Of a stretch of 64,000 nucleotides of DNA, positions 1-58,800 are shown one piece after another. The notes under the pieces are model-generated. The model searched no databases. It worked only from the letters and a program-made list of their open reading frames with translations, and was not told the DNA's origin. The DNA comes from Sipunculus nudus (lineage: Eukaryota; Annelida; Sipuncula; Golfingiida; Sipunculidae): the NCBI GenBank assembly GCA_026874595.1, contig CM049321.1, positions 19,996,979 through 20,060,978 on the forward strand, given 5' to 3'. Each line of letters starts with the position of its first letter. Within the stretch, counting starts at the first letter, position 1. A program made the position numbers and the translations under genes.

Positions 1-60
1 TCAGCTACATAAAGATCTATCTAGTTAAAATTGAAACAAATATAATTACCATTTAGGAGT

Positions 61-62
<2 letters not shown>

Positions 63-108
<46 letters not shown>
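63..108. repeat. (TA)n microsatellite
   Basis: About 23 TA dinucleotides without interruption. Confidence 0.95.
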
Positions 109-111
<3 letters not shown>

Positions 112-217
112 GCTTTTATTTAAATCAGAAATATCAGTTGAACAAGATGAATAAATAAAAAAGATCATATTTGCAGGATCAAACGTATAGAAATGTAGAA
201 TTATAAATAAACAATAC

Positions 218-416
218 CAGGGCAAATCTAAGATTTAGAGAAGTGAGGGGTTTATGGTAACACCGAGAGACTAATACCCGTAAAGAGGTGCACAAATCTA
301 TAGGAAGGGGGAGCCTTAAAAAATGGGAAAACACTGCAAAAAAAGGTAATTTCTCGCAGAAAGGGGGGGGGGGGGTGGTTAAATCCCCTAAACCCGCTCT
401 CCGGATCCGCCCCTGT
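218..416. mobile_element. Small MITE with CAGGG...CCCTGT ends
   Basis: Starts CAGGGCAAATC and ends GGATCCGCCCCTGT; both sides carry the 6-bp duplication CAATAC (212-217 and 417-422). It contains a poly-G run near its right end. The ends resemble those of the element at 10.49 kb, and CAGGG/CCCTG termini suggest a hAT-related family. No coding capacity. Confidence 0.6.
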
Positions 417-1043
417 CAATACTGCATGATCAATACTTTATATCAAAGTAAGTCCCAAACTGCGAAATCATAATTGTGTTTTAGAAAATTTAAGCATTAT
501 TAGACTGAGATTCCAGGAGGACGGTGAGTATGGGATCCGATTGCAAGCTGGGGGCCTCACCCCCACCCCTAGCTCCCCCACCCTTTGGCTTCGCCCCTGA
601 GATGGGTTAGTACAAAATGTGACACCTATGCACGAAATGTAATGTATGATGAAAAAGTATGATTAAGTATTCACTAAATAGCTTTAATTTAATATATAAT
701 TTATAATAATGTTTGAATTCAGATACACCAAAGTATTCAATGTCAGACAGGATTTTTTTTTTATCTCAGATGAAGATAAAGACATAAAAAGTCCAACAAT
801 TGAGCTTTTGTACACCCACTGAGATTATTGGCTCTCAGTCATGCAACCAGAGCAAGCCAAACCACGGACTGCTTGGTGTCCCTAGTCGCTTACATAGGTG
901 GCGCTGTTTTTACCGTGTAACCGCCTCTGACATGACACACATCCGGTGAACGCTTAAATCATCTCACTTGTTATTGCTGTCATCTGAGGTGAAATTTCAC
1001 GACTTGCATTTACGCAAATAAGTGACAGGACCAGGGTTTTTAA

Positions 1044-1135
1044 TTAGTAGACTTCTGACAGTGACTGAGACCTCGGTCGCTGCAACGTTTGTCTCTTGTC
1101 TTTAGAGCTTACCTTTACACTACTTATTGAAGTAG
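1044..1135 (-). CDS. STX17: STX17 putative last exon: basic cytosolic tail (residues 570-599)
   Basis: Acceptor GTGATTTCAG follows a pyrimidine-rich run. It is in phase with the preceding exon and encodes ATSISSVK, then SSKDKRQTLQRPR, and stops TAA after SEVY. A short basic tail of similar length follows the hairpin in human STX17, but residue identity is low. Confidence 0.45.
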
Positions 1136-4100
1136 CTGAAATCACAGAAAGGTACATGACATTTTATGTTGACAAAAAGTAAAAGTAATGAATATGACAG
1201 TTTTACAAACTAAAGGTTTGTTTACGTGCTAATCTTATTGAATAAAGCATATTACAAGATTACTAAGAATTAACTTAAAAACAGAACAAAAATGTAACAC
1301 ATCTCTCGTTTACTTACAATGTATAATAGAAGACTGTTTAGTTAGATGCAGATGCATCAGTTTAAATCTATAGATATGAAGTGTCTAATGAAGCATTTAC
1401 AACACTGCGTACCAGTGATGGCTCCGCCCACTCCAGCTGCGGTTGCTGCTGCACCAAATTTGAAACCTGTCAATAAGCCGAGAGGACCACCAACCGCAAC
1501 TCCTACCAACGCTCCGGCTACCGGAAAAAAGATGGCTTTGGCATTCTAGGATAGAGATATGTAATACGCATGTAACACAAGTAGAAACAAAAGTTTTTGA
1601 ATATTTCAAATGCGAACATACGTCGTTTGTAAGGAAACTCGGTAAAAAATAACCCATATGATCATTATTTATAAAAGAGTAGACTTATGCGATGTCATAA
1701 ACGCATACTATCTCTTATGAAGAATCAACTTATTACAAGTTCTATACAAATACAAAAGCAAAAATCAAATTTTACTGCAAATTTGTGAAGATTGTATAAA
1801 ACAATACTAATCAGTAATACAGATGATAAATTAGAATCAGATTATGTTATCAATCCTATTGATATGTTGAATGTTAATAGAGAGTTCCAACAAATATTTG
1901 GAATTATATTTCAATGTCTTTTCTAGTGTTTGAAGGAAGTTTATTTAATTTTTAAAGTTTATTTTACACATATATACCTCCCATACGCTGTCCAGTCAGT
2001 CAACATCTTCATTATCTGCTCTTTATTTCTTATTATGTCAAGTGATATTAAATATTCGGCGAGATTCGGTGCCGACAAAAGTCCCCATGTCAATTCGAGT
2101 TTACGTATAAAGCACCATTTACTGGCTTATCCATATCAAATCCGTGCCTGTACTTTTATAAAGAATATTTTGCTTCTCTTTGGAAGCCAAAGCCGACCAC
2201 TACAGCAAGGTCCCAGCATTTCATACAAACAAAATATGTACCTTTTCCATGAGCATGCGCGCTTCGGTCGTCTGCTGTGTTTAGCATTGAACATGCACGC
2301 ATCAAGTGAATGTTATTAAACGAATCCAGATATAAGCAAAAGATTTAGACATGCGTCTCACCTTTAAGTTTTTTTTTATACGATATAAATACGATATAAA
2401 TTCCTTTTCAACTGATAAGAAAATTTAGTGTTATCCATCCCCAATATATGTCGATTGTGAAATGGAATAAGTCATTTCCCTGATTGATTAATTTTGATAA
2501 TTACATTATTAATTCTTTGAGCTCTTTTATGTTGACGGATAAACTAAAAAGCCACCAATGTCTATTATCCACGAGACATAAGACAAAATACATCGAATCG
2601 GCCATTTCCTCTTACTGTAATATCCACGAGTTAAATGTAGGGTAACCGTAAATTCCATTACAGTATTGCGACAACCGGAAACAGATACGACCAGTTATTG
2701 TTAGCTTGAGACCCTACTGGTCCCATGTTGCATGCACTGATGTACGTTGTAATAAACAGATATTTCCCAAGCATAGACTGTTGTTACAGATATATCACTT
2801 ACGACCAAACAATTTTCTGATTTTTATTCCCTGACCTGGGACATTTTCATCTTACATTCCCTGATTTGCAGGAACCAAGTAAACTTATGTTGCAGGTTTT
2901 CTCTTATTATCAGAATGACTCGGAACCCTATATAGAGTGTGATATATAAGGTCCTTCAAAAAATGTTCTCTATATCCAAGTATTTCCAGTGTCTCAACAA
3001 TACATAAATAAATCAAGGATTATGAATGGTTGAAGCATGAGGAAACACTGTATAAATATAATGGACACCCAAACCTTTCTTAAATGTTGAATACCCTTCT
3101 TCAAATTAATCCCCTCTTCTTTTTCTTCTATAAACTATATAATATAAAAGAAATTAAACCATTTAATCCGTCTTAAACAGTAAAGAGTGGGATATGTGTT
3201 TGTACATGCGTTCAGTTATTATAAATCGTGCAGGGTGATAAATCTATATCTGAAATTATAACGAGGTCTTTTTCGCACAAGGTAGGCGTGCTTAGGGAAT
3301 ACACAAACGTATAAATTTAACGATTCGTCTGCATGGTACATCTAAAGTGACAACTTTCTTGTAAGCCTTAAGGCATTGTTAAGAATGACGAAAATATTTG
3401 CACTTTCATGAAGGTTTAAAATACATTTCTCGATACAAAAATTAGCCACTCTGACTCTCTAACCGTATCCGCACTATAGAAAATAATCGGGATCGTGAAT
3501 CGGTTTTCTCTGTCCACACTAGGCGACTAATCAGCATCAGTTCGGTTTAATGTAGTCCACTGTGGTCCACTTGAAAGACGGTCCACAGTAGACTTTTTTT
3601 TAAGTGGAGGTAGCCGCCTCTATTTATTTTAATGCCGAGTATCTAATTCCTAACCTAAAAATTTACATCTGCACAATTTCCATTTCGGTTTGGGACTACT
3701 TGACAGGGCGGTAGCACTCGCTTCCTCTAACTTTTTTTAATGTGTATCCTGGTGTCACCAAGGCCCGGTGTCTACCGCATCTGCGGGCCTGTAATCAACC
3801 CCAATGCTGGGTCATAACACCGAAGAACCCCCCAAAGACGCACTTGTATGTGTATGATACACAGCCTTGGGGCACAGCCTTCCCATCAAGCCTGCAGATC
3901 GGTCACCCTGGGTGGGGGGGGGGGGGGCAACCCGGAAAAATCTCACCGCCTCGGCTGAGATTCGACCCCACGATCTCCCGGCTTTGACTCCTGCGCTCTA
4001 CCCCTGAGCCACAAAAGCTGGTTATACAGTAGACCGGTTTATTGTAGTCCGGTCTCTAGGGCGTAGAGGTAAACCCGTTAACCTTGCTGCTGCCACTACA

Positions 4101-7100
4101 CGCGCTGCGCGAGTGAGTGTTTTATTTCAGGCATGAATCGGATTACTAACCAAGTGCGGACAGCAAACTAATGCTGTGTTGAATAAACAGATTAAGACTT
4201 TTGTAAAGCGAACTACAGTGCGGACGCAAAGCGGACTACTTTACGACTAAGGTAAACCGGTTTAGTATAATCAGGTTAAGATGCGAACCAAATACGGATA
4301 GGGCCTCTAATGTCAGAGTGAAAATGCTGCTCTTCTGATTTCCACAACGAAATTTGACCGTAACTATATTTTCACTCTGATTAACCTTTTGGATTATAAA
4401 TCATAAATCAACACCTTACTTACGGATGTATCAAACTGTGAAAGTAAATTCTTTAATTCCTTTATATTCTGAAAAATAAAAAAAACTATTTTAAGCTGTC
4501 ATTAAAATATTTATCATTAAAATGGTAGAGATATATCATGATCATTTCATACGTTTGATGTATTTCACTTGGAAATTCGAAATAATTTGGTGAAACGGGT
4601 GAGTGTTTACATATTTTTTTTAACTTTCCTGACTATTTTAGTAGTGTACTTACAGAGTAAAGTTCCTTAAATGATGATGCAGTAAGACTTTGTTCCCATC
4701 TTTGTACACTAAGAGCAAATGATGGAACTACCATCTGTGATGTGACGTCAGTATCTCCAGGGGTCAAAAACGAGGTTACTGTAGGAGGCGTCGTCATGGT
4801 AACATTTTTCCTTGGATGGCCACGTGGTATTCCAATAGCTGATTGAGTCATAATGTCATCTTTCACTGATGGAACTGCTGGTGTAATTAATGACTGCGTC
4901 ATAACGTCATCCGAACTTGGCATAGCTGGTGCCAAAAGTGATTCTGTCATGTTGCCATCATTCGATGAGGCAGCAGTTGGTGTCATGAGTGACTGTGTCA
5001 TAACGTCATTTGTCCTCGAATTAGCAGGCGGTGTCATGAGTGACTGCTTCATAACGTCATCTGTCCTCGAGTTAGCAGGCGGTGTTATGAGTGACGGCGT
5101 CATTACGTCATCTGTCCTCGAAGTGACAGTAGGTGTCATGAGTGATTGTGTCATATCGTCATCCCTCCCCGAGTCAGCAGTTGATGTCGTGAGTGACGGC
5201 GTCATAACGTCATCCGGTATCGATGAAGATGCAGTTGTCATGGGAGTCTGCACTCTAACCTCATCTGTCTTTGCGGTAGCGGATGATGACTCCGTTAAAA
5301 TGTCTTCATCTCCCGAGGCCGCGGATGGCGTCTTTTGCGACTGCAACATTGTCTCTGTACCTTTTGAGATCTCACTCTCCAGATCTGTGCTATGGTCAGC
5401 CTCTGTTTGAAGTGGTATTTCGGTGTTGTTATTCCCTTCATTTTCTTTAGGTCTCCCCACTGAGAGAGGCGTATAATCAGAATCGCCAGCTTTCTCTCCT
5501 TTCTCTACGGACGTTTTGTCTGCCTGAATTTCTCCGCAAGGATTGTGAGTTTCTCGTTTGTCCTCCTGAGAGATGGCGTGACCACTTGCGGTCACATGAC
5601 CACTTGGGATCACATGACCTTTTTGGCATGAAATTGACCCGTTCATAGGAGAATCTAAAAATGCAAATAAAGCAACAGGTTGAGAATCTTAAAGAAAATA
5701 CATGTATATGACTTCATTTTTTTAATTTTAAACACGTACACGTCTACCAGTGTCCGAAGGTTTTCGGGTTTTAATCTCAATCATCTCCAAAGCTGTACAA
5801 ATAATGTATAAACTTCATATTTCTCAATTCTTGCAATACTTCTTTTCCACCGCATTGGGAACACTCCCGGACCACTGACCAAAGAAAGATTATATTACAT
5901 TTCACATAATAAAAGTAAAGATCAATCTAGTTCACTGAAGCGAATAAGTTGTACTAAATTTGGCCTCACCTTATATTTCTACCGCAGCGGTTTTAAAAAC
6001 CCTGCATTCGTTCCATAACTCATTCTACATAACCACTGCCTGCTTTTCCTGGTTATGTGGGGTTTTGCCGCCGGAAAGTTGGCAGAGAGCCAAGAATGAT
6101 AAAGCCAGTGGGAGCGGGGTTCTGCATGTACATCTAATTTTTATATCCCGCGATACCCCCGTGTCATTTATCTTTATTTTTAGCCATTGGGCAGCCGCCT
6201 TAAATTTCAGCAAACATGCAGTGGTTCCGTATTATGACTAACAGAACAACTGCGCGTTATAGGCCTAACCACTGCGTAAGCCTCACCTTGGAATGTGTGT
6301 GCTTGTGCCTGTATATTTGTCTCTGTCTGGCCGTTTTTGTAGGAGGTAAGGTCAGATGTACTTGTACCCGTCAGGTCAACGACCGTGTCTACGACACCTA
6401 GATATAGGTCAGTGAACTTGGCATCAAAGAGGTCAAGGTCATCCTCGTGTATCGATGACCTTATGCTGTAAAGGTCACGCAACGTATTCATTACTTCCTT
6501 GATGGTCCACGTGGTACGGGTTTGTTCTGTGATAAGTAACCTCCAGTCCAGGTTCTGTCTGTGCTGTAGAAACATCAATATAAACTAATTTTAACAATTC
6601 ATCCATGCTCTTAAAGCAACTTGAACAATGCGTTAAAAAGGCGTATGAAATGTTTCATGTACTGTAGGAAATTTTATGTGAAACAAAGTATCTGATTCAT
6701 TTTCTTTTAATGGTTCATTTTCAACAATTCTTGGATTCATTGTCCTCCCCCCCCCCACCCCACCCCCCTTGATTACACAGGGACACAAGCTGTCATTTGT
6801 CATCCTTGGCCCTGTGCAAGATCGGGTGTTACCAGACCAACGAGAGCCGGGTTCCGCATGTTTAAAATCTGAGCTGAGTGCACAAGGCAATACCAGTCAG
6901 TGCTCTGATAGCAATTCTGTGCTCTGTGCGTACCCTGGTGTGCCTGCCGAGAGAACCTAGGTATATACCAAGCGGCGGTTACACCAAAGGATGTCTGGGA
7001 CGACTGCATTGTATAACCCCTGCGCAAGAAGCGTTCCCACACACCTACTTAATTATATGTACATGTACTACGTACATACATGTACTGCCCGTTTAATGTA

Positions 7101-7556
7101 CACTGCATGTGGAAATTTGAGCACCAAATCTCGCATACAAACACGTATTTCTCTCAAGAAGAATAACATAATGGAACAAAATACAGCCGATATAATAAAA
7201 TCTCTTCTCTGAGTCAACTTTAAGTTAATCCAAAGATAGCTCTAAGTTTGGCTGGTACCAATGTTAAATGATTTTACCTTGTAATGAATTATGATGGATG
7301 AACAATTTCTAACACATGTGGATTAATATATTTGATTTTTGAAATTCTGACCTTTTGCATATTATTCTTATGTCTCTTGATGCGCAACGTGTCCACTTTC
7401 CCGACACTAATTGTCCTCCTGACCTCACGTTCCACATCTTTGAACCGCAACTGCTCCGGACCTGCATCCTCAGGCTGCAGGTTCTCCAGCACTTTATTGA
7501 ACTGCTTAGTCCACCAACCCCTGACAGAAGATTCATCCGCCATCTGATTGTTAAAT
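1044..7556 (-). CDS. STX17: Syntaxin-17 (autophagosomal SNARE), repeat-expanded linker; 7 coding exons
   Basis: Join on the minus strand: 7543-7352, 6563-6287, 5654-4654, 4468-4424, 3134-3075, 1545-1413, 1135-1044, about 599 aa; phases agree at every junction. The first two exons align without gaps to the syntaxin-17 N-terminal helical domain (LRxH..N..K, then W.L..E, RT, and DDL). The sixth encodes the family's Gly-rich membrane hairpin (PVAGAL, then GGPLGLLTGFK). In the family STX17 sits on completed autophagosomes through this hairpin and pairs with SNAP29 and VAMP8 for lysosome fusion. Odd points: the linker exon adds about 270 residues, including eight 17-residue repeats (residues 304-429), making the protein twice the usual 302 aa. 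The SNARE motif as spliced is short, so a microexon may be missing. The last exon is the least certain; reading on past 1413 would stop at 1357. The 5' end at 7556 is an acceptor, so an upstream leader exon is expected. Confidence 0.85.
1413..1545 (-). CDS. STX17: STX17 coding exon 6: glycine-rich membrane hairpin (residues 526-569)
   Basis: Acceptor TATCCTAG. It encodes NAKAIFFPVAGAL, then GGPLGLLTGFK and an Ala/Gly-rich second helix. This is the diagnostic double-pass hairpin of STX17; PVAGAL and GLL.GFK are identical or nearly so to human. The proposed end is a non-consensus donor G|GTACGC, placed where the family sequence leaves the membrane. Without splicing the frame stops at 1357 after a Cys-containing tail. 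Confidence 0.8.
3075..3134 (-). CDS. STX17: STX17 coding exon 5: end of SNARE motif (residues 506-525)
   Basis: A 60-nt exon, acceptor ATATTATATAG, weak donor AAG|GTTTGG, phase 0. It encodes FIEEKEEG then INLKKGIQHLRK, matching the membrane-proximal VNVEEGTKNLGKA of human STX17. Against human, 4 to about 14 residues around the SNARE central layer are not found. Confidence 0.65.
3447..4320. mobile_element. MITE-like element carrying a nested SINE, in a STX17 intron
   Basis: Imperfect inverted ends: CCACTCTGACTCTCTAACC on the left, and CACTCTGACATTAGAGGCCC read from the right end on the other strand. Subterminal AGTCCACT/AGTCCGCT motifs recur inside. It sits in the intron between STX17 exons 4 and 5. 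The target duplication is not clear. Confidence 0.4.
3704..4018 (-). mobile_element. tRNA-derived SINE
   Basis: On the minus strand a tRNA-like head (about 4015 to 3945) has A-box TGGCTCAGGGGTAGAGC and B-box GGGTCGAATCTC at tRNA-like spacing, then a body with a poly-C/G tract. The head lacks the paired acceptor arms of a functional tRNA. Confidence 0.6.
4424..4468 (-). CDS. STX17: STX17 coding exon 4: SNARE helix microexon (residues 491-505)
   Basis: A 45-nt exon with acceptor TTTTTCAG and donor ATCC|GTAAGTAAG, phase 0 on both sides. It encodes NIKELKNLLSQFDTS, which continues the SNARE heptads (hydrophobics at I, L, L, F) from exon 3. It is too short to be seen by ORF length alone. Confidence 0.75.
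4654..5654 (-). CDS. STX17: STX17 coding exon 3: giant Ser/Thr-rich linker (residues 157-490)
   Basis: 1001 nt, acceptor TTTTTAG, donor TCT|GTAAGT. It is in frame with exons 2 and 4. It encodes a low-complexity linker of about 330 residues: a short SGHV-type repeat, an acidic/polar stretch, eight repeats of the form DDVMTQSLMTPxxxSRT, then a Thr-rich part and the start of the SNARE helix (RWEQS to FKELYS). The corresponding linker in vertebrate STX17 is only about 60 residues. Reading frames on the opposite strand here are shadows of the 51-bp periodicity. Confidence 0.8.
4837..5214 (-). repeat. 51-bp coding tandem repeat, 8 units
   Basis: Eight consecutive units of 51 bp (one of 48) inside STX17 exon 3, each translating to a 17-residue DDVMTxSLxTPxxxSRx module. 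On the plus strand each unit carries a TCATAACGTCAT-like core. Amino-acid differences are mostly at the P-x-x-x-S positions, so the DDxMTxSL core looks constrained or recently amplified. Confidence 0.9.
6287..6563 (-). CDS. STX17: STX17 coding exon 2 (residues 65-156)
   Basis: Acceptor TCTACAG, donor CAAG|GTGAGG, ends phase 1. It encodes the second half of the N-terminal helical bundle: W.L, TRTTW, LRDLY, then an acidic EDDLDL motif that lines up with KDDLVLL in human STX17. The last part is polar linker. Confidence 0.85.
7352..7543 (-). CDS. STX17: STX17 coding exon 1 (residues 1-64)
   Basis: The ATG at 7543 opens MADESS, like the acidic start of STX17. The stretch from VEREV to RIKRHKNN matches the first helix of the family's N-terminal domain. 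It ends at an AAG|GTCAGA donor in phase 0. A polypyrimidine acceptor lies 13 nt upstream (exon edge 7556), so the 5' UTR continues in another exon. Confidence 0.85.
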
Positions 7557-10500
7557 CTGTTAAAAAAAGAACAACTCAATACTTCTGAAAACTGTCATGT
7601 CATGTTTAAAGGGACATCATCTGGTCTTAGTACCTCCCTTTCATCTGCCTTACGTCTTGTTATGATTCTGCATGTGAGCAAACACGATCCACGTGTGTCT
7701 GTTTACTATAAAAAGATCCAAAACAAGGAGAAGTCCAAACTTGTCCATACATTGACTTTCATGTCCTCTGATATATCTCTGCTAGATGGACATGTAAATT
7801 AATTGAAAAACTTATCGCAACATATTTGTACGATAGGTCCAGGGGCCTCAACTGAAAGGACACGCACAGTGTAACCTCGTGTATCGGGTCCCTTATAGCC
7901 ACCGAAACACGCGATGTTTCACCGGCAAGACCATGTATTACATTTTTGGCAAAATAAGTGAGGGCATCACCTGACTGACAGGTCAGAGTTCAACGCGCTA
8001 AGTTTAGGCTGGCGCCAGTGATGGCGCCCGGTTCACTTTTTTAACACTCGTATACAGGAGTAAACCAACTGTTTCAGGGCAATATTTCGACAGGAATCAA
8101 ATTATTTCAAAGAGAAGACGCTATTTCCGTGTAAATTCAACATGCTTTATATCTGATTATGTCTCTTTAAATGTCCTTTAACATACGAGGGCAGAAACGT
8201 GTATCGAAATTGCAGATTACTTGTTATTTAAATTATATTTTCTTATAGAAATGTATAAATCTAAAACAAATTCTGATATAAACTGTACGTTTAAAAAAAC
8301 TTCTTAAGAATTGCGTATTAGTTTACAAATTTAGTTAGGCTTGTTATTTTTATGGCTAATATACACCTGCTAGGGATGTAGGGATACGTTAACTATTAAT
8401 ATTTAAATAGTTTAGCCACTCTAAAGTGCCATCTGTTGTGTTTGGGATGACATTAAACACTTCTTCAAGTGAAAAATACTGAAAGCTCAAGATAAGCTTG
8501 TCTTCTTAATGAAATTAGAAACTTGAATAAATTTTAGCATTGATAAGAGCTAGCTAGGGTTATGGCCGACGGTCCTGTGTTCAGTTCGCACTGTTTATGG
8601 ATTTAATATCTACTAACAAGCTGGAACTCTTGAAAATTAAAATCAAGCACAAGTGCTTACAGCAGTCCTTTCAAACATGAATGTTATCTTGAATTTTGAA
8701 CGTGTGCTTACATACTATTTTGACAAGGTACGGCATTGATATTGATGGTTACAAGTGAAAGGAAAGGAGTGGTTATTATTTTTATTTAGCTAAGGCCCCC
8801 AAAATTAGTTTGTCCTGGGTTGTTAAGCCTGTTCAGTCCACATATGAATTCATCACTAGTTTTGAATGTCCTGATTTCGAAGTGATACAAATGTATCAGG
8901 CTCGTTTACCCTTAGACCCATTTGTTGATCTGTTGTAAATATCAAGAGCTACAACTGGGTCTAGTTTACCCTCTGCCCTATTCACGAAATGGATATAGAG
9001 AATATTAGTTTTGATGGGCCCTATAATGACTATATTGAACAAGTAATTAGAGTAATTAGAGCTGTAGTCAGAGGCTCTATGGATATACCTCCACCAAGAT
9101 CCTAACCCAATATGTACTTTTCTGTGTATTGCTCAGAACAAAGGCAGTCCCTAATACCAGTGAATAACCCAGGCCATCGGCCGAGAAAAAGAAATGTCTA
9201 ATTCTCACAATACTAAAAAAACACTTATAAATAATAAAAAAAAACAATATAGGCACAGTATTCCAGATAACCTCCTTACCGTTTTTGGATTAAGTTGCTA
9301 ACAGAGAATCCAACCAACCAAAGTAAAAACATACAACCTCTTGCCACCGAGCCATGCAGTTACAGTTAGCCAACGTTTGACCAAGTCAGATTTCAGTTGT
9401 GTGGCTGACACGTACGGTTCCTTCCGGGTTCTATAAAACGATGATCACGATTGGAAAACAAATTTCTGATTAGTACACTGAAACTCCGATAGGTGACGCC
9501 TGTTTTCGTGATGTTGGAATTCCCCGATCCATGGTGCCAAATCGGAAACATTCAATTTTTACTTGTTAAGATACTAATGATACACACTTTCTGTATTCCG
9601 GGGATGTTTGTTACTCATGAATTGTTATTTATGTGGTGGTTCCCAACATGGTTTGATTTCCGATTTCTGACAGGCTTCCTTTGAAACGGTGACACTTGTC
9701 CCTATTGATTATGCACCATGGCAGTTGCCTGGCTTTTAGCCGCAGCCAACCGTTCACGATCACGTGTGTCACTCATGTTTTATATTTACTTCACCTGGAA
9801 CACTCGTGTACATATCTTTACAGCTGGCCCGATGTTATCTCCTTATGTTCATGTTTCACTCATCTTATTACATCAAGCTTTCTGGTAATAGGGGTGGATT
9901 AGATAACCAGTGCCCATGGTCAAGCTATATGATAATTGGTTTTTATTTTGACAGATAAGGTTAGAAACACATAAATAGAGTTTTGTTATTGGCGGACGTT
10001 GAATTACATTATAAATTCCCGAAATAATTTAATGAGGCTCTAACATATTAAACAAAGGAAACCCACAGGATTTCGAATTCCGAGAAATTCATATACTGCT
10101 CTTACCCTCCCCTTTAATCCCGACTATAGCCTAGATTGCGTCACCATTGATTTTAATGTCTTAACCACTAATCTAGTCCTTAAGGATGGACTACTCAGTG
10201 GCTTTAATTAGTGACTTTCCTAAAGAAGTCTAATAATTAATGTCAAATAAAAAAATATAAAAAGAAACTTTGCGTCGTCAGCGACCGTGTGTCGGAACGT
10301 GTGTGCTCATGTTTACAAGATATTACTGTATACATATGCTCCATCATACCTCAAACGTAATCACAAAAACATGAATTAGTTAATTGAGTAAGTAATCTTA
10401 CCTAGAAGACTTTCCTACTTTCCTCAGGTGTGGAATTATTTTAGCGACCACGCACGCGGTGTCTGTGTTTAGGACAATGAATCCATGTCGGTGCAGGGAC

Positions 10501-23600: not shown

Positions 23601-26600
23601 CTAATAAACACTGCTAAATAATGCAATTCCCAGTGAAATAGAAATGACCACAGTGCAATTACATATTTTTCTTTATTTATGGAATTAATTCTGATGCTCA
23701 TATAAATGTGCACTAAAGGAGATAAAACCTATTTATTTAATTGTAAGATGTTGCAACATATTCAAGCTTGCTAAAAGTAGACAGTCAAAACTGCATCATT
23801 TAATGTACCAGGGGAGTTGTATACAATAACGCCTTTCCGCCTGTCTCAGAAAGGCAAACATATACACAGAAAAGCAGTTTTCATTCTGTGATTTCTGTTA
23901 GAAAGAAAAATACTTAGTTATTTTCCACATTAATAGCTGATAAGTAGTAACACACATGATACAAAACGAAATATTTACAGGTGGTATTCCAATGACTCCC
24001 TATATTTCCTATATTTATTTATGAAAAATGGTCTATAATTTCTTATATTTTCTGACATTTAGACCCTCATCTCTTATATTTTCCTGTTTTTTTTTCACTG
24101 CACAATCATGTTTCTGATATAAGTTTTTTTTTGCATGCAAATGTACATGTAGGATGGCATATAAGATGGCAGTATCAGGTTTACACTGAGCTAAGTGTGA
24201 CTGAACCTTTGAAAGGATGCATCTTTACGGGGAAAGTCAAATTTATCTGCAGAAAGACAAATCCTGTATTAATGCCTATCTCTTGAAAAGGTGAAAATGT
24301 CTAAGTATTACGATCCCTGGGTACAGTTGGCAACATATTGCTATGACTTTCAATAGATTCAGGCCTGAATTCAGAACTGCAGCTTAAAAAGTGTTCCTCA
24401 CCAAAACTCATATCATAATGTACAATCTGGCAAATGGCACCAACAAACAAGCACAGGTAATAAACAATGTCAGCCTTAAAAAATAATCTAATACCTTTTT
24501 CAGTCCTGATTCCAAATCGTGTGTTGATTGGGTCTAAACCTTGTGGGAATCCTACGCTCTGGTCATGTGACCTTCCAAGTGGCGCTCTCTGGTGGGAAGC
24601 ATAAAGAGATTCCTTCTTGTTTATCAGTGACTGCTGGTAGCGGGTTTTAGGGTCCGGGTTGACCAGCTCTCCTGATTTTAAGGAAGGATTTATACAAACG
24701 CCATGAGTCATCTGTGCAGCTAACTTCAGATGTGGGTCGTTTGCTCGTCCATAAAATACTCGTGATTTGCCCGCATCTGGTCTGAAGGTGGCTCTGAATT
24801 TCCTAACGACCCCAGGGGAATCAGGCTGAAAATGTGCAGAAATGTTATACATGATCATCCTTGAACTTTTTATTTTGAATCTGAGATAAGATGTATTTAG
24901 TTACAACAGCTATAAATTAATGGTATTTTCATTACATTCATCTATATTTAATTTTCAGGATAAATTATCCAAAATCTATATTTTTGCATAAAACTATAGA
25001 ATCAGTTATCTGAGACATCTGACCAAAATTTATTTTCCAACTGACAAACATCTTATTTGTAATCTGAATTACCATTTTGCATTTTACTGGAACCATTTTT
25101 GTACAAGGTAAAATAAATGAACATGTATACTGAATCAGAATAAAAAGCAGCCTCCCAGTGAGGCCACACATTTTCAAATGAGAACCAGTTCCTTGGTGAT
25201 GTTGCTAATTTGTGTTGTTGCCTTGATTCTTTAAAATTCTTAAAGATATGAAAAATGAACTCAAATCTGTATTGATTACATTCGCCATAACAAGATTTGA
25301 ATGATTTTTTATTACTTGCACACCTGCAAAAATTCTAAATATTGTGTTTTGACCAGTAGATTAAAAAAAAAAAAATTACCTGATGGCATAATATTTTTGC
25401 AAACAGGGTCTCTTACACAATTAATTATTTGTTGTGTGGTCTTACTTACCCTTTCTACTGGTTGCATGCACAGCTGAGCTGAGTCAGATGTGGCAGTAAG
25501 CTTACCAGCCTGAGAAAAAAAGTAATCATAAAAACTTATTCCTATAATTTGCATGTATCCTGAATTTTAATAATCTGCTCAAAGCACCTGACAAAAATGA
25601 AAACATGAATAAAAATACATCATATATGAAATTATTAAATATATGCTTAGACATAAAATCACCACATAAATTAATATCTACAAATAATTTCTTCCTGGAT
25701 AATAATACAATTAAGCAATTTTGTGAGCCAAGTAATATTCAAATCTAATCAATCACTGCGTAATATCCAAGGAAGGATTTATATACAGTGATTTTATTTG
25801 CTGTATAACAAAGCTAACTACAAAATGTGTATTGTTTATCTGTACCTAGGTATGAGCTAGAAATATATCTGAAAATGATATAAAAATTACTGTTAATGCA
25901 ATAATTAAAATTAATTGATCATTGCATGCTTAATTTGACGCATTGATCATTTGATGCATTGTTAAAGCCCTAATAATTTAAGCTAAAGCGAAAAATGTTA
26001 TCCTAGTAGGATATGAAAATTGGGACATTTTTTCTCCTCAGATGATTCTTTAGGGATACTGTTTTCTAAACTGTCAATTAAGACACTTGATAAAATTCAT
26101 CTGCCTAATGTGTGGGTCACCTGCTCGAATGAAATTTGTTTACTGACTATGAATTATTATTAATATGCTGAAAATGATCATACTGCTAGTCCTTGAGTAA
26201 GTACCTGTTTAAGGATACAGGGAGTTGCAGGCTACTAAGCTTCACCGATGCTTAACTGCACATGTCTCCTTATTACCCTAGGACTAACTATTAACTAAGC
26301 GATTTTTTTTTAAATAAGCGACTTGCCCAATACCACAGACTGGAGGCTGATCATTGCTGGACCAAAGCCCAGCAATACCCTACCCAGCTGGTGACCAATT
26401 CACTGCCATGACCCTCCTGATCATTAGAGCAGCCTATCTTGTTATGGGGGGAAGAGTGGGTTAGTCTGTTTTAATGAAAGCGGGGTGGTAGATAGCTGTG
26501 CTGTTTTACAATAGAACAGATCATACTAAATGTCAAACTCAGCTATTATACTCACGGCTCTTGTTTCTGGGTTTCTGTCTTTGAAGCGACCTTCATAAAT

Positions 26601-43800: not shown

Positions 43801-46800
43801 GTTATAAATTGTTTTATAATAATTTAAAAATTGCTTATATCATGGCTCATAATATTTTGGTATATGTAGAAAAATACATCCAAGTATCCGATGATGGCTG
43901 ATTATTATTATGATCAAATGCATTGTATGATTGTATACATGGTGTTACTTTTGAATGGATGTTCACAGTAAATTGTCATTCTGTCCAACAGAAATTATAA
44001 ATCTAAACAGTGGCACCGCAAACAATCATATGGTTTTTGTTTTGATTTTCTTGGAACATACAAGAATTGATAAATTTACTTGAACATACATACATTGATA
44101 AAATCAGTTGGTTATATAATGCCATGCCTAATGAGCACTCACTGCTGAATTTTGTTCTCACCATGCAAGTTTTGATTCTTATCAATTTACAAGTGTTTCC
44201 AAATTTAAAAAAAAGGGCAGCATGGTCATTACAGAACTTGGTTTCTACAGTTTTAAGAAAAAGACCTGAATTGAGTCAGTCTTGAACTCACATACCCAGT
44301 GCAGCTGGCCATTTATCACTGACGGCTTGACCACTAGGTGACAATAAATGTTGTAACTGCTGGCTTATTGCCATCAATGGTACAATTTTCACTCTGATTT
44401 GAATGTAACAGTGAATCATATAATGCATGTCAGTTATGTTCTGTTATGTCATTAAAGGGGCCTATTCCAATATCTGAAGTCAATTGTTTAAAAATAATCC
44501 ATTGAACCTTTAATAAAATAGGCCAGAAACGCCAACCTATTGGCACACAAGCTGTTTTGTTTATATCTGCATGTTTATAACATGGGGGGGGTTTCAAAGT
44601 AATCTAAACTGTTCAGATTCCGCATAGATACAACCAAGTACATGAATTTCATATGCCTGTGATATGATGGGAGTATTATGGTATACCAACTGTCCGTCCT
44701 TTAACTTTTAGTGTCGCTGGGATAACTTAAGGGGCTTAGATGGATTTTCAAGAAATTCACTATAACTACTAACCAACAGATTATCTCGCCCGAGTGTGAT
44801 TATGGGCAACATCCACACATATTTAATAAGGTCACAGGTCACTGGGCTGCTTTGTGGTGTTGTTGTGATAACTTTCGATTGAAATCATGAATACCTTTTT
44901 GAAGTAATCGTAATTGATTACATTAATTTTTTCAGCAATGTAATTGTAATTGTAATCATTTACTTTGCCCATGTAATCATAATCAAAATTGATTACATTT
45001 ATATAGTAATCAGCCCATGTCTTTTCATAAACAAGAGTGCAAGTAAGCCAAAATTCACAAACATTAAAAGGTAGGTGACTCAGACTAGCTGGTTTTAACA
45101 ATGGAAATTAAATGTGAGACTTTAGTAGCCTTTTTTAACAAAAAAAAAATACCGGTGCTTTTGATACTTGGAAACAATATCTTCTTGTCTCTTTAGTTTT
45201 ATCTCTTCATTTGATCACTGTGATAAAGTTAATTGTAGGTATATATACATAAATAAGCTTACAAAAACATAATCACTTGACTGATTTAAGATGACAGAGA
45301 TCACTCTTCAGGATGTATATTTATAAACAATGATGACATGACTGTATTAATTACACTTGGTGATGTGTTATCAGGTTATCAGATATAAAGTGCTCAAAGG
45401 AGGGACTGTTATCAATGGAAACAGCGTCATCAGGACTGGTCACGTGGACATAGTCATGTAGTATATATAATATGTATGTTTTGGTTTCCCTTTGGTGTCA
45501 TGCCAGTATGAGTCATGGTTAGGAATAATCATGTCATGCCTGATTAAGTATTATGTACACAGGGGCTGGAATTACCAAGCATTCACAGGCCAAGTGTGTG
45601 TATGTTCATTAATGGGCCGGTTATTTATAAATGATGCTTACAGACCATTAGACATGAAGAAATTTTATTCTGTTCAAATGATGTGTTAAGATGCAGTAAA
45701 ATTAAGCAGTTCTTTTATGAAGAAAAACCTTCAATATTTTGGATAATTTGGTAATTATAAAATTTATGCTTGAAAGTCAATAGTACAAATAATGGAACAA
45801 ATGTAAATTAAAAAAGCATCCAGTATAGGGACACTAACCCTGCAAGGAATATATTGATTTATATTCCTGGAAACCTTTTTTCATGGAAAATATTTGGTGA
45901 TATTGCTGCCATTGACTATAAAATTAATGACCTTGAGGGTCCCTATGCATTACGTTAAAAGATTGATTTACTGATACAGGTCTTTCAGAGAAATGGTACA
46001 TAGAGTAAGTTATTGTCCTCTGTGAAATCAAGACTCGCACTCCATATATGGCTATATATGGTAACATGTTATAGGTCACAATATTAATAAATGAGCAGTG
46101 AAACTCAATAAAACGGTTATTCTAGGGTTATTTACAATGGGAATACACTAAAATTTAAATCACTTGGAGAATTTCACTATACTGACCTACATCTCAAATT
46201 TCAATAACATCTATTGTACCATTCTTAAGATATCTTGCGGACATCCAGACACAGAATTAAGTGTAGAATTTCACTATACTGACCTACATCTCAAATTTCA
46301 ATAACATCTATTGTACCATTCTTAAGATATCTTGCGGACATCCAGACACAGAATTAAGTGAAAAAAATAACCTCCACATCACGCAGGGCTAACAAAATGC
46401 TTGGGAGGTTTAGCCTATGGCATGTTTAATACACAAGTTAACCAAAGCCCTTGTGGCTTGTGTTGCTGATCATTTAATTTCAACCCCTATTATTTACCAT
46501 TATACATAGGGTTTCATGTTAACATGTATATGCAGCTGTGACTTTTATTACTGGCAGAATTGCAACTGTGCAGGCCCTAACCATAGTGAATGCATCTTTT
46601 GTGGATTTACTGCAATGGGCTCTTGGTCAGGATCCTGTTCATTGACGCACATTGAACTGAGCTATTGTGAATAGTACTAGTTTCAATTTAATTTATCTGT
46701 AAACAAGTGAAATCAAACATGTTTCCTGAACATTCAGGTTACTAACTGGTATGTATTTTGAGACAAGGAAATGTTTCTGACATTAATCTGTTATATATCC

Positions 46801-55800: not shown

Positions 55801-58800
55801 GCCTTGGGTTAAAATCACTCCTATCTCTGCAGTGGTTTGACTAATTCACCTGAAATTGGGCATGCTTGTACATCCTGGATAGCTTTTCTGATTTTATGAC
55901 AGGTGGCACCACCTACACTCACGTTTACGCTGCAGACATCCAAGCTCATATCTCGGGAACCGTTTGACCGATTGGGCCAAAATTTTGCATGTGTATAGAT
56001 CTCACATAGCTCTTTATCATACACAAAACTGGTGGCGCCACCTGCACCCATTTTTGCACAGCTCCCGTCTATCTGTCTGCCATGGGATAAAATCACTCAT
56101 ATCTCAGCAGTGGTTTGACATATCTGCCTAAAATTTTGCAGGTTTATACATCCCCAACAGCTCTCTTGATTTTATGACAGGTGGCACCACCTACATTCTA
56201 GTTTATGCAGCAGATATCCAAGCTCATATCTTGGGAACCGTTTGACAGATTGGGCCAAAGTTTTGCATGTGTATAGTTCTCACATAGCTCTTTATCATAC
56301 GCAAAACTGGTGGCGCCACCTGCAACCATTTTTGCACAGCGTCCATCTGTTTGTCTGCCAAGGGCAGAAATCACCCATATACATGTAGTGGTTTGACTTA
56401 TCTGCCTTAAATTTGTATACAACTTGGACAGCTTTCTGGATTTTGTGGTAGGTGGCGCAACCTACATACACAATTTGGCTGCAGACACTTCACTCTATTT
56501 CCCCTTGCCACTCAATCCATGCCTCACTTCACCCGTTCCACTCTGATTTAGGCGGATACACGTAGAGCTTGTCGACTACCCGTATTCTAGTTATAACTAT
56601 GAGCAAGGTAGCTCAAAAGTGTATCATAAATCTTTATCAAACTTGACACATGCATAGATAGGGGTGAGAACAAAATTAATAACTGCATATGCTGTTTTAA
56701 TAAAAACAAGATATCAAGCATTCATATTCCCAGTTCAGCAATGTATTATTTGATAACGCTTGGCTGGTTTGTGATCTTTTAGTTTACTTCCAATTAGATC
56801 CCATGACAGTGGTTTATATATTCATAATGAGCTTGATAAGATCAGTGATAAGAGACTTGAGTTCATTATATATGGTTTTATGGCCGGTGTGCCCCTTAAC
56901 CGCAGTGAGATAAGTCCGACTGCTCCTGTAATCTGACAGAGTATCTCTTCAGTGGACAGAAGGTTTCCAGTGTATTCTCCAAGTTGGACATATTACTGTG
57001 TCTACCCCACACTAGAGGTTGCCTGCCAAGCTATCAGCTGTCAAAAATCAATTGAATGTTTCCTGGGGTTTTTGCTGAGCTGGAAATGCAGATGGAAACA
57101 ACTCAGCTATTTAGTTTCTGTAGCTGTTTGATCCCACTCACAGTGTAAATCTGGTATCAGGTTCTTATATTTGCTAAGTGAAACTCTCAACTCTCTTTTA
57201 AAGTTACTAATTTTACAAGTGGAGTTGTGATTGAATTTTGAAAACCTGATCCTGTTCAAGAAAAACTACCTGCTGAAACCATTTTCTGTGCAATTTTATA
57301 AGCAAAGCTGACATGTTTGAAAGGTTCCATAAGAAAGATATCATAAGATTTCAAGCTGTTAACATTATAATTCTATCATTACTTGCAATTGCAGGACTCA
57401 TTTAGTCGAGCAAAGACATGGGTGAAAGAACTACAGCGACAAGCCAGCCCCAACATTGTGATAGCCCTAGCCGGTAACAAGGCCGATCTAGCCAACAAGA
57501 GGATGGTGGAATATGAAGTAAGTGTCATTTACCCCTCTCACACAGCAAATCTGCTGAAACCATTTTGGCCAAGGCGGATTGTGCTGAAACCATTTTGGCC
57601 AAGGCAGATTGTGCCCAAACCATTTTGGCCAAGGTAGATCGTGCCCAAACTGTTTTGGCCAAGGCTGGCTGTGCCCAAACTAATTTTGCCAAGGCAGATT
57701 GTGCCCAAACTGTTTTGGTCAATGCAGATTGTGCCCAAACCATTTTGGCCGAGGTAGATTGTGCCCAAACTGTTTTGGCCAAGGCTGGCTGTGCCCAAAA
57801 TAATTTTGCCAAGGCAGATTGTGCCCAAACTGTTTTGGTCAATGCAGCTTGTGCCCAAATTATTTTGGCCAAGGCAGATTGTGCTCAAACCATATTGGCC
57901 AATTCAGATTGTGGCAAAACCATTTTTGCCCAGGCAGATGGTACCCAAAACATATTAGCCAAGGCAGTTTGCAGAAACTTGTGCTTTCATATGTCAGATA
58001 AAACAAAAACAGTTTGGGGCCAAGGCCCCAAGTGTCAAGTACATGTGGTGTGAAGCCTCACCAACAAAGACATCATATGAAGCAAAATATTTGTACTAAA
58101 TGGCCACACATGTTATCAACACAAACATCTGTGTACTGTCACTCTATTTTCACAACAAAAGAAAACACTTAAAAAACGCCCACGTGCCAGCTCCTTTATT
58201 TATATAGGGTCCTCCTTTGTTGTCAGTTTCATTCCAGGGCCATGCATCAGAGCACAGTGATGTCACATGTTTGGTGATGCTTGTTGATTTCATTTGGGGA
58301 GGTTGCGTCACTTGAGTGCCAGGCTGATATGAACCCACTGTTTTAAATGAGTGCAAGCTGGATCAATCACAGACATTGATATGATTCTTTAAGGATGTGT
58401 TGTATCACGTGTGGTGGGGCTTTTTTATCTGGGTGATAAAATGCATGGCCATTTTATTATTTCAGGCCTGCCAACTTGTCTGATTTAATCAGATTTCAAA
58501 GTCAGATTTTTAAGATTTTTGGCAGCAGGAAATTGTATAAGTAGGATTTATGAATATACTGGGAAAAGAAATTCATTCTGCTAATCAATAGATTTCTTGC
58601 CAGTAAACTCTGATTGAACTTTGTGTATTCATTTGTCATTCATTCATTCTGATACTCCATTAATCCCGAGCAGTTAAAACTCGATTTGTGGTAGTTTTTA
58701 CTCACTGAGTTGCATACTGTAAACTTTGTGTGTGCATATGCTAATAAAATGTAACCTTTCAACTGTGGCATGAGCATAAATGTATTGACCTTTAAGAACA

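Follow-up and report, generated by a model that had tools for sequence, protein, structure and literature searches.

The window analysed here, a stretch of 64,000 nucleotides of Sipunculus nudus contig CM049321.1, holds on its minus strand a gene (hereafter L) that is very probably a diverged, protein-coding duplicate of syntaxin-17 (STX17), lying tail-to-tail with a conventional STX17 gene (hereafter A). STX17 is, to our knowledge, treated as one protein per animal. We put the probability of our overall explanation, in which L is a diverged STX17 duplicate that acts as a non-fusogenic partner, at about 0.55. The first-pass annotation had read the window gene as syntaxin-17 with a giant tandem-repeat linker; the kinship, the coding exon and the repeat were all recovered, but the reading of L as the syntaxin-17 of this species does not hold, the conventional A lying close by.

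Gene L and its neighbour A

The model of L consists of seven exons on the minus strand (Table 1), with AG/GT at every modelled intron, and encodes a protein of 599 residues without a stop. With STX17 as the guide, the exon borders of both genes were set manually, and splicing is predicted. The genome coordinate equals the window position plus 19996978, which places L at 20004521-19998022, in the opposite direction to A. Residues 30-129 of L, which provide part of the evidence for exon 1, align with paralog A, and exon 2 shows 43% identity to the A exon across 61 of 92 residues. The C-terminal tail of L, as read from the translation, is positively charged and ends in ...KVSSKDKRQTLQRPRSQSLSEVY. 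The tail ends of A (KRSRSKSLPDIK) and L (QRPRSQSLSEVY) have an R-S-x-S-L motif in common. In an intron of L (minus strand, approximately 4040-3700), a tRNA-like stretch with a Pol III-box-like sequence, perhaps a SINE, was seen by eye; ARAGORN found no tRNA in the window.

Table 1. Positions of the exons of L, of repeats in exon 3 and of two rejected microexon candidates (window coordinates; gene structure predicted)
Feature	Position	Strand	Description
Exon 1 of L	7352..7556	-	Acceptor 7556, ATG 7543; N-peptide and start of the Habc region; open frame, splice sites
Exon 2 of L	6287..6563	-	277 nt; Habc helices; phase 1 at end; splice sites
Exon 3 of L	4654..5654	-	1001 nt, 334 residues; Ser/Thr/Asp/Pro-rich linker, repeat and FKELYS (4671-4654)
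Exon 4 of L	4424..4468	-	SNARE N-terminal half (NIKELKNLLSQFDTS); 2 codons shorter than in A
Exon 5 of L	3075..3134	-	SNARE C-terminal half (FIEEKEEGINLKKGIQHLRK); 9 codons shorter than in A; glutamine absent at the zero-layer place of A
Exon 6 of L	1413..1545	-	Glycine-rich transmembrane hairpin, typical of STX17; aligned to human STX17
Exon 7 of L	1044..1135	-	Basic C-terminal tail and stop
Repeat tract	4750..5310	-	Eight units, DDVMTQSLMTPxxxSRT-like; decayed units: two upstream, one downstream
Repeat unit 9 of eleven (seventh of the eight recognisable)	4861..4911	-	Has ATGACGCAGTCA (4902-4891), common to the A linker exon
Second small tandem repeat	5579..5619	-	18 nt, 2.3 copies, GHVIPS/GHVTAS; exon 3
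Rejected microexon candidate	3309..3341	-	33 nt, MYHADESLNLY
Rejected microexon candidate	4359..4385	-	27 nt, VNQSENIVT; contains glutamine

A search of the genome with the hairpin exon found at least two places, the second being C16:19985305-19985418 on the plus strand, and the Habc exon was likewise found in at least two places. Gene A was assembled by hand as seven exons on the plus strand (C16:19973974-19987868, L018-L020) encoding 343 amino acid residues. It lies tail-to-tail with L, ends approximately 9 kb outside the window and has its stop codon approximately 10 kb from that of L. Across 290 aligned columns, A was 34% identical to human STX17 (E 1.3e-44); it has a 248-nt linker exon and a 16-layer SNARE including the zero-layer glutamine, and matched syntaxins in the PDB at approximately 1e-5 through its SNARE, STX17 (7bv6) among them. 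Its score against Pfam PF05739 was 24.4 bits, below the cut-off of 26.8, and human STX17 is likewise below. Because of the match to human STX17 over 290 columns and the SNARE match to solved syntaxins, A is, judged by its sequence, the conventional STX17 of this genome. The human query was a sequence entered by hand, whose residues 142-228 agree with PDB 7bv6. Near-tandem copies of a AAAGGTCAAGGTCAC-like element were seen by eye in an intron of A (L019, approximately 5220-6450).

The exon plans of the two genes correspond. Counted with exon 1 from the ATG and exon 7 to the stop, the L/A exon lengths are 192/144, 277/253, 1001/248, 45/51, 60/87, 133/130 and 92/119 nt; the differences are multiples of three in all seven exons, or, equivalently, all six intron phases agree. 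This agreement is supportive but not fully independent, because the borders were picked with STX17 as a guide. L and A are 41% identical over 100 residues in the Habc region (E 3.6e-20) and 59 to 66% identical in the hairpin exon. Against human STX17, two models of L were compared, one of 610 residues that includes a 33-nt candidate microexon and the 599-residue model without it. The SNARE region and hairpin matched at 7.6e-13 (599-residue model) and 2e-13 (610-residue model), whereas the direct match of the Habc region to human STX17 was weak in the 610-residue model (6e-5, with the alignment entering the linker), and no match at E up to 0.01 was found with the 599-residue model.

Nucleotide identity between L and A at the first, second and third codon positions was 0.61, 0.62 and 0.34 in the Habc region and 0.54, 0.67 and 0.35 in the SNARE and transmembrane regions. 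Third positions are thus near saturation while first and second positions are kept, which indicates that the L/A pair has been under protein-level selection. Among 190 three-way columns, 46 were equal in all three proteins, 37 in A and human only, 8 in L and human only and 35 in A and L only, and 64 differed in all. The imbalance of 37 against 8 (p=1.5e-5) shows L as the faster-evolving copy. Together, L looks like an old, coding and fast-evolving gene from these sequence comparisons.

The linker exon and its tandem repeat

Exon 3 was found exactly where the first-pass annotation had placed it, bounded by an AG acceptor and a GT donor. It had been described as in phase, and its frame is indeed in phase with both neighbours, but the exon is not symmetric (phase 1 to 0). 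Since 1001 is not a multiple of three, skipping it would shift the frame; with these asymmetric phases and the start of the SNARE helix inside it, the exon is not simply skippable. The estimate of about 270 added residues needs correction, because the exon encodes 334 residues and exceeds the corresponding exon of A by 251 codons, much of this excess being the tandem repeat. Similarly, it does form the linker between the N-terminal domain and the SNARE helix, as proposed, but it also holds the first SNARE layers (FKELYS).

Exon 3 lies within a stop-to-stop frame of 351 codons, the longest in the two ORF lists, which cover frames closed at both ends. The next longest frames were 187 codons in 1-10000 (on the opposite strand of exon 3, among 42 frames of at least 60 codons) and 199 codons in 10000-64000 (among 5 frames of at least 130 codons). 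Even with the repeat counted as one unit, a stop-free run of 163 codons is rare by chance, with 10 occurrences in 20000 exon-like simulations and 2 in 20000 intron-like ones. Elsewhere in the window, a 199-codon open frame on the minus strand (24301-24900) resembles part of the coding sequence of a conserved ciliary protein, perhaps an EFHB exon, and a perfect 97-nt tandem duplication at 46168-46360 is either very recent or an assembly effect.

In a DNA search of the 1.43-Gb genome, by a method that skips very common words, exon 3 gave one match. A protein search at E up to 1 gave 22 rows, comprising the exon itself, one row on the opposite strand and 20 rows elsewhere; the latter had E values of 3e-4 and above and 21 to 38% identity, 15 of the 20 contained stops, and we took them as low-complexity noise. 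The reading of exon 3 as a mobile or dispersed repeat was rejected, given the one match by DNA and the weak protein matches elsewhere.

Measured on the alignment, between the Habc match and the start of the helix, the linker of L is 355 residues long, whereas those of A and human STX17 have 96 and 65 residues; a textbook scaling law gives root mean square spans of approximately 15 to 18, 7 to 8 and 6 to 7 nm, respectively. The part of the L linker encoded by exon 3 (319 residues) contains 28% Ser and Thr, 8.5% Pro and 3 aromatic residues and has a negative net charge. Its charge-hydropathy value falls barely on the disordered side (0.432 against 0.438, a thin margin), and AlphaFold2 run on the single sequence gave pLDDT below 50 in 311 of 333 residues, with no helix and no secondary structure elements; the linker is likely disordered, though weakly supported as such by these predictions. 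TP dipeptides numbered 12 per 319 residues against a shuffle mean of 3.9, an excess due largely to the repetition of the unit. Patterns for CK2, 14-3-3, LIR and N-glycosylation were no more frequent in the linker than in shuffles.

The linkers of L and A could otherwise hardly be aligned, but the stretch preceding the SNARE helix is similar in the two genes (SQIVVPSIA in A and SQMVVPSFA in L; L019:357-383 and window 4740-4714), and the linker ends of L and A matched with P 0.007. This stretch is possibly a conserved linear motif. A linker motif common to human STX17 was considered and rejected; comparison with human STX17 gave P 0.09 for A, 0.08 for repeat unit 9 and 0.04 for the end of the L linker.

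The first-pass annotation had counted eight 17-residue units, and eight units (16-18 residues) were indeed recognisable by eye, together with three decayed ones. At 4967-5214, Tandem Repeats Finder detected 4.9 copies of a 51-nt period. Over nine units, the best-kept columns were D1, D2, M4, T5, S7, L8, T10 and S15, each kept in 7 or 8 of the nine. Unit 9 has a 12-nt word in common with the A linker exon (P 0.005), and 13 residues can be aligned (P 0.02), both post hoc; neither the whole repeat tract (P 0.09) nor the consensus unit (P 0.40) stood out against the A linker. Conceivably, a motif that occurs once in A was the seed of the repeat, which we offer as a lead only.

It is a real possibility, though short of an even chance, that the 51-nt repeat is an ordinary open minisatellite that is tolerated without function, a reading compatible with our interpretation of the gene as a whole. 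The window contains another open minisatellite without evidence of coding, with a 30-nt unit in 13.8 copies within a 178-codon open frame (57557-57971, plus strand). Purifying selection inside the repeat was not significant: pN/pS of six units was 0.57 in the coding frame (column-shuffle P 0.11) and 0.59 in one antisense frame. By contrast, the units are well diverged (pS 0.36-0.45 across three unit choices), unlike the product of recent slippage, yet the frame is kept throughout, and the resemblance of unit 9 to the A linker motif also speaks against an ordinary minisatellite.

The SNARE helix and the coding status of L

When the core was read in 3-4 spacing from the residue aligned to human W172, it was WLLLVFVQIIVAVGLA in human STX17, LLILMFVQVIIAIGLA in A and FLILLFFEGLILA in L. 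This gives 16 SNARE layers in both human STX17 and A, and 13 in L in the best gene model with its predicted splicing. The zero-layer glutamine was absent from L both in this model and with the 33-nt candidate, again on predicted splicing. Compared with A, exon 4 of L ends 2 codons earlier and exon 5 lacks 9 internal codons, a total of 11 residues or approximately three turns. With exons 4 and 5 joined, 6 of 7 core positions of the C-terminal half were hydrophobic or small (shuffle P=0.005), and narrower residue sets gave P 0.01 and 0.05; owing to the periodicity, the register is matched equally well whether 0, 7 or 14 residues separate exons 4 and 5. L matched neither the Pfam SNARE model in any of nine splice variants nor PDB syntaxins at E up to 10. 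Where human STX17 has WETL, a LIR motif, L has FKEL (window 4671-4660) and A has LSNL.

These sequence features suggest that L has probably lost fusogenic ability. In mammalian cells, according to PMC6422071, the zero-layer substitution Q196G of STX17 lowered FRET with SNAP29, whereas for VAMP7 no significant decrease was seen. It is therefore conceivable that pairing is partly preserved when the glutamine is missing.

The trimmed helix might instead reflect an incomplete gene model. In that case L would be a working autophagosomal STX17 with a long linker, its SNARE completed by a small exon, whether the 33-nt candidate, another one or one that was missed; we consider this quite unlikely. The intron between exons 4 and 5 contained 66 small-exon candidates, 8 of which had a glutamine followed by a hydrophobic residue (21-60 nt), and scores against human STX17 were computed for nine splice variants, one without an insertion and eight with a candidate or a shifted donor. 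The 33-nt candidate is exactly as long as the missing part, has AG/GT borders and puts hydrophobic residues at positions 1, 8 and 11 of the core; the chance of such a candidate was 0.017, by criteria picked after seeing it, and its inclusion raised the BLAST score of L against human STX17 from 56.2 to 60.5 bits. VNQSENIVT, which scored highest among the glutamine-bearing candidates tried, raised the score to 62.8 bits. However, KTDSRSRLFSI, evidently unrelated and with poorer splice sites, likewise gave 62.8 bits, so that the BLAST score does not discriminate among the candidates. The 33-nt candidate would also leave 13 of 16 core positions fitting, with alanine as the zero-layer residue, and VNQSENIVT has a weak acceptor and would reduce the intron behind exon 4 to just 38 nt. 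Among intron stretches of 33 nt, the length searched, none that was free of stops matched [VILMF]..Q...[ILVMF]..[ILVMFY]. The model of A joins exon 4 directly to exon 5, with no counterpart of the 33-nt candidate, and a complete STX17, A itself, adjoins L. The 33-nt microexon was rejected for its worse register and for the direct joining of the two exons in A.

A decaying pseudogene, that is, a freed duplicate with deletions in its SNARE and a drifting repeat, would account for the faster evolution of L (37 against 8), the SNARE deletions and the weak selection signal within the repeat. Nevertheless, L has 599 codons without a stop, AG/GT at all modelled introns and all six phases kept; first and second codon positions are conserved with third positions near saturation, and the hairpin exon has stayed 59 to 66% identical to that of A. 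Moreover, the two SNARE deletions, 11 residues in total, preserve the heptad register. We therefore regard decay as improbable. Another improbable reading treats the repeat tract as an in-frame internal intron (an exitron, 5638-4709, 930 nt) and thus as an optional part of a compact STX17-like protein: a donor and an acceptor are present, the frame would be kept and a linker of ordinary length would result, but when the tract is retained, the whole frame stays open and its phase fits the exons on either side, and the pair score of 21 was reached by the best in-frame pair in 88% of simulated exons of like composition for lengths from 60 and 77% for lengths from 300 (300 trials per length class), so that this candidate was rejected as no better than simulated exons, save weakly at lengths of at least 800, where 17% reached the score.

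Proposed role and comparison with known systems

If L is a diverged duplicate of STX17, its hairpin and basic tail would take it to the membranes of STX17. A positively charged cytosolic C-terminal tail of STX17 is needed for autophagosome recruitment, according to PMC11152571. There, L would present its Habc region and start pairing through its intact N-terminal SNARE layers; in PMC6422071, the Habc region of STX17 is said to associate with HOPS components. L could not, however, complete a 16-layer fusion bundle and would thus be a non-fusogenic partner. As a brake, it would compete with A as an inhibitory SNARE; as a tether, its linker of approximately 355 residues would let Habc and bound factors reach about twice as far as in A, with a linker of approximately 96 residues. 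The repeated TP sites could be phospho-switches. We advance the role of L as a brake or tether tentatively, rating it somewhat below even odds. It is rather doubtful that selection made a dedicated non-fusogenic STX17, in which the ionic layer and three turns were lost with the register kept and a linker motif was multiplied into a phospho-tunable multivalent tether.

STX17 acts in autophagosome–lysosome fusion, and a duplicate with its targeting kept and its fusion helix altered would be a natural split of recruitment from fusion, for which the ordinary twin A provides a ready internal control in one genome. L also shows where a syntaxin tolerates a repeat-expanded linker. If L is a dedicated non-fusogenic STX17, then an autophagosome fusion driver and its brake or tether would be paired and encoded tail-to-tail; if L is merely drifting, the case reduces to a modest instance of a linker growing in a relaxed paralog.

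Among the papers listed in the literature searches, no title or opening part of an abstract announced a repeat-expanded or duplicated STX17 protein. The listed abstracts on 'STX17 duplication' concern an intronic copy-number variant in horses, the consulted passages of PMC9143426 contain nothing on an STX17 linker, and PMC2639358 names syntaxin 17 among animal endosomal syntaxins.

L resembles STX17 in its Habc region, SNARE-like helix, glycine-rich hairpin and basic tail, and in the seven-exon plan found in A. It differs from STX17 in its much longer linker (355 residues, as opposed to 96 for A and 65 for the human protein), in the 13 layers without a zero-layer glutamine of the best gene model and in its fast evolution. 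In the i-SNARE concept (Varlamov et al. 2004), as summarised in PMC3627133, a SNARE enters a fusogenic complex and renders it non-fusogenic. This is the working mode that we propose for L as a putative inhibitor. The named i-SNAREs (syntaxin 6/Tlg1, GS15/Sft1 and rBet1/Bet1) have complete SNARE motifs and fuse elsewhere, whereas the motif of L is trimmed. Tomosyn and amisyn have R-SNARE-like motifs without a transmembrane anchor, and their SNARE-like coiled coil enters the complex without driving fusion. The likeness to L lies in a SNARE-like coiled coil that may enter the complex without driving fusion, whereas L is Qa-derived and carries a hairpin anchor.
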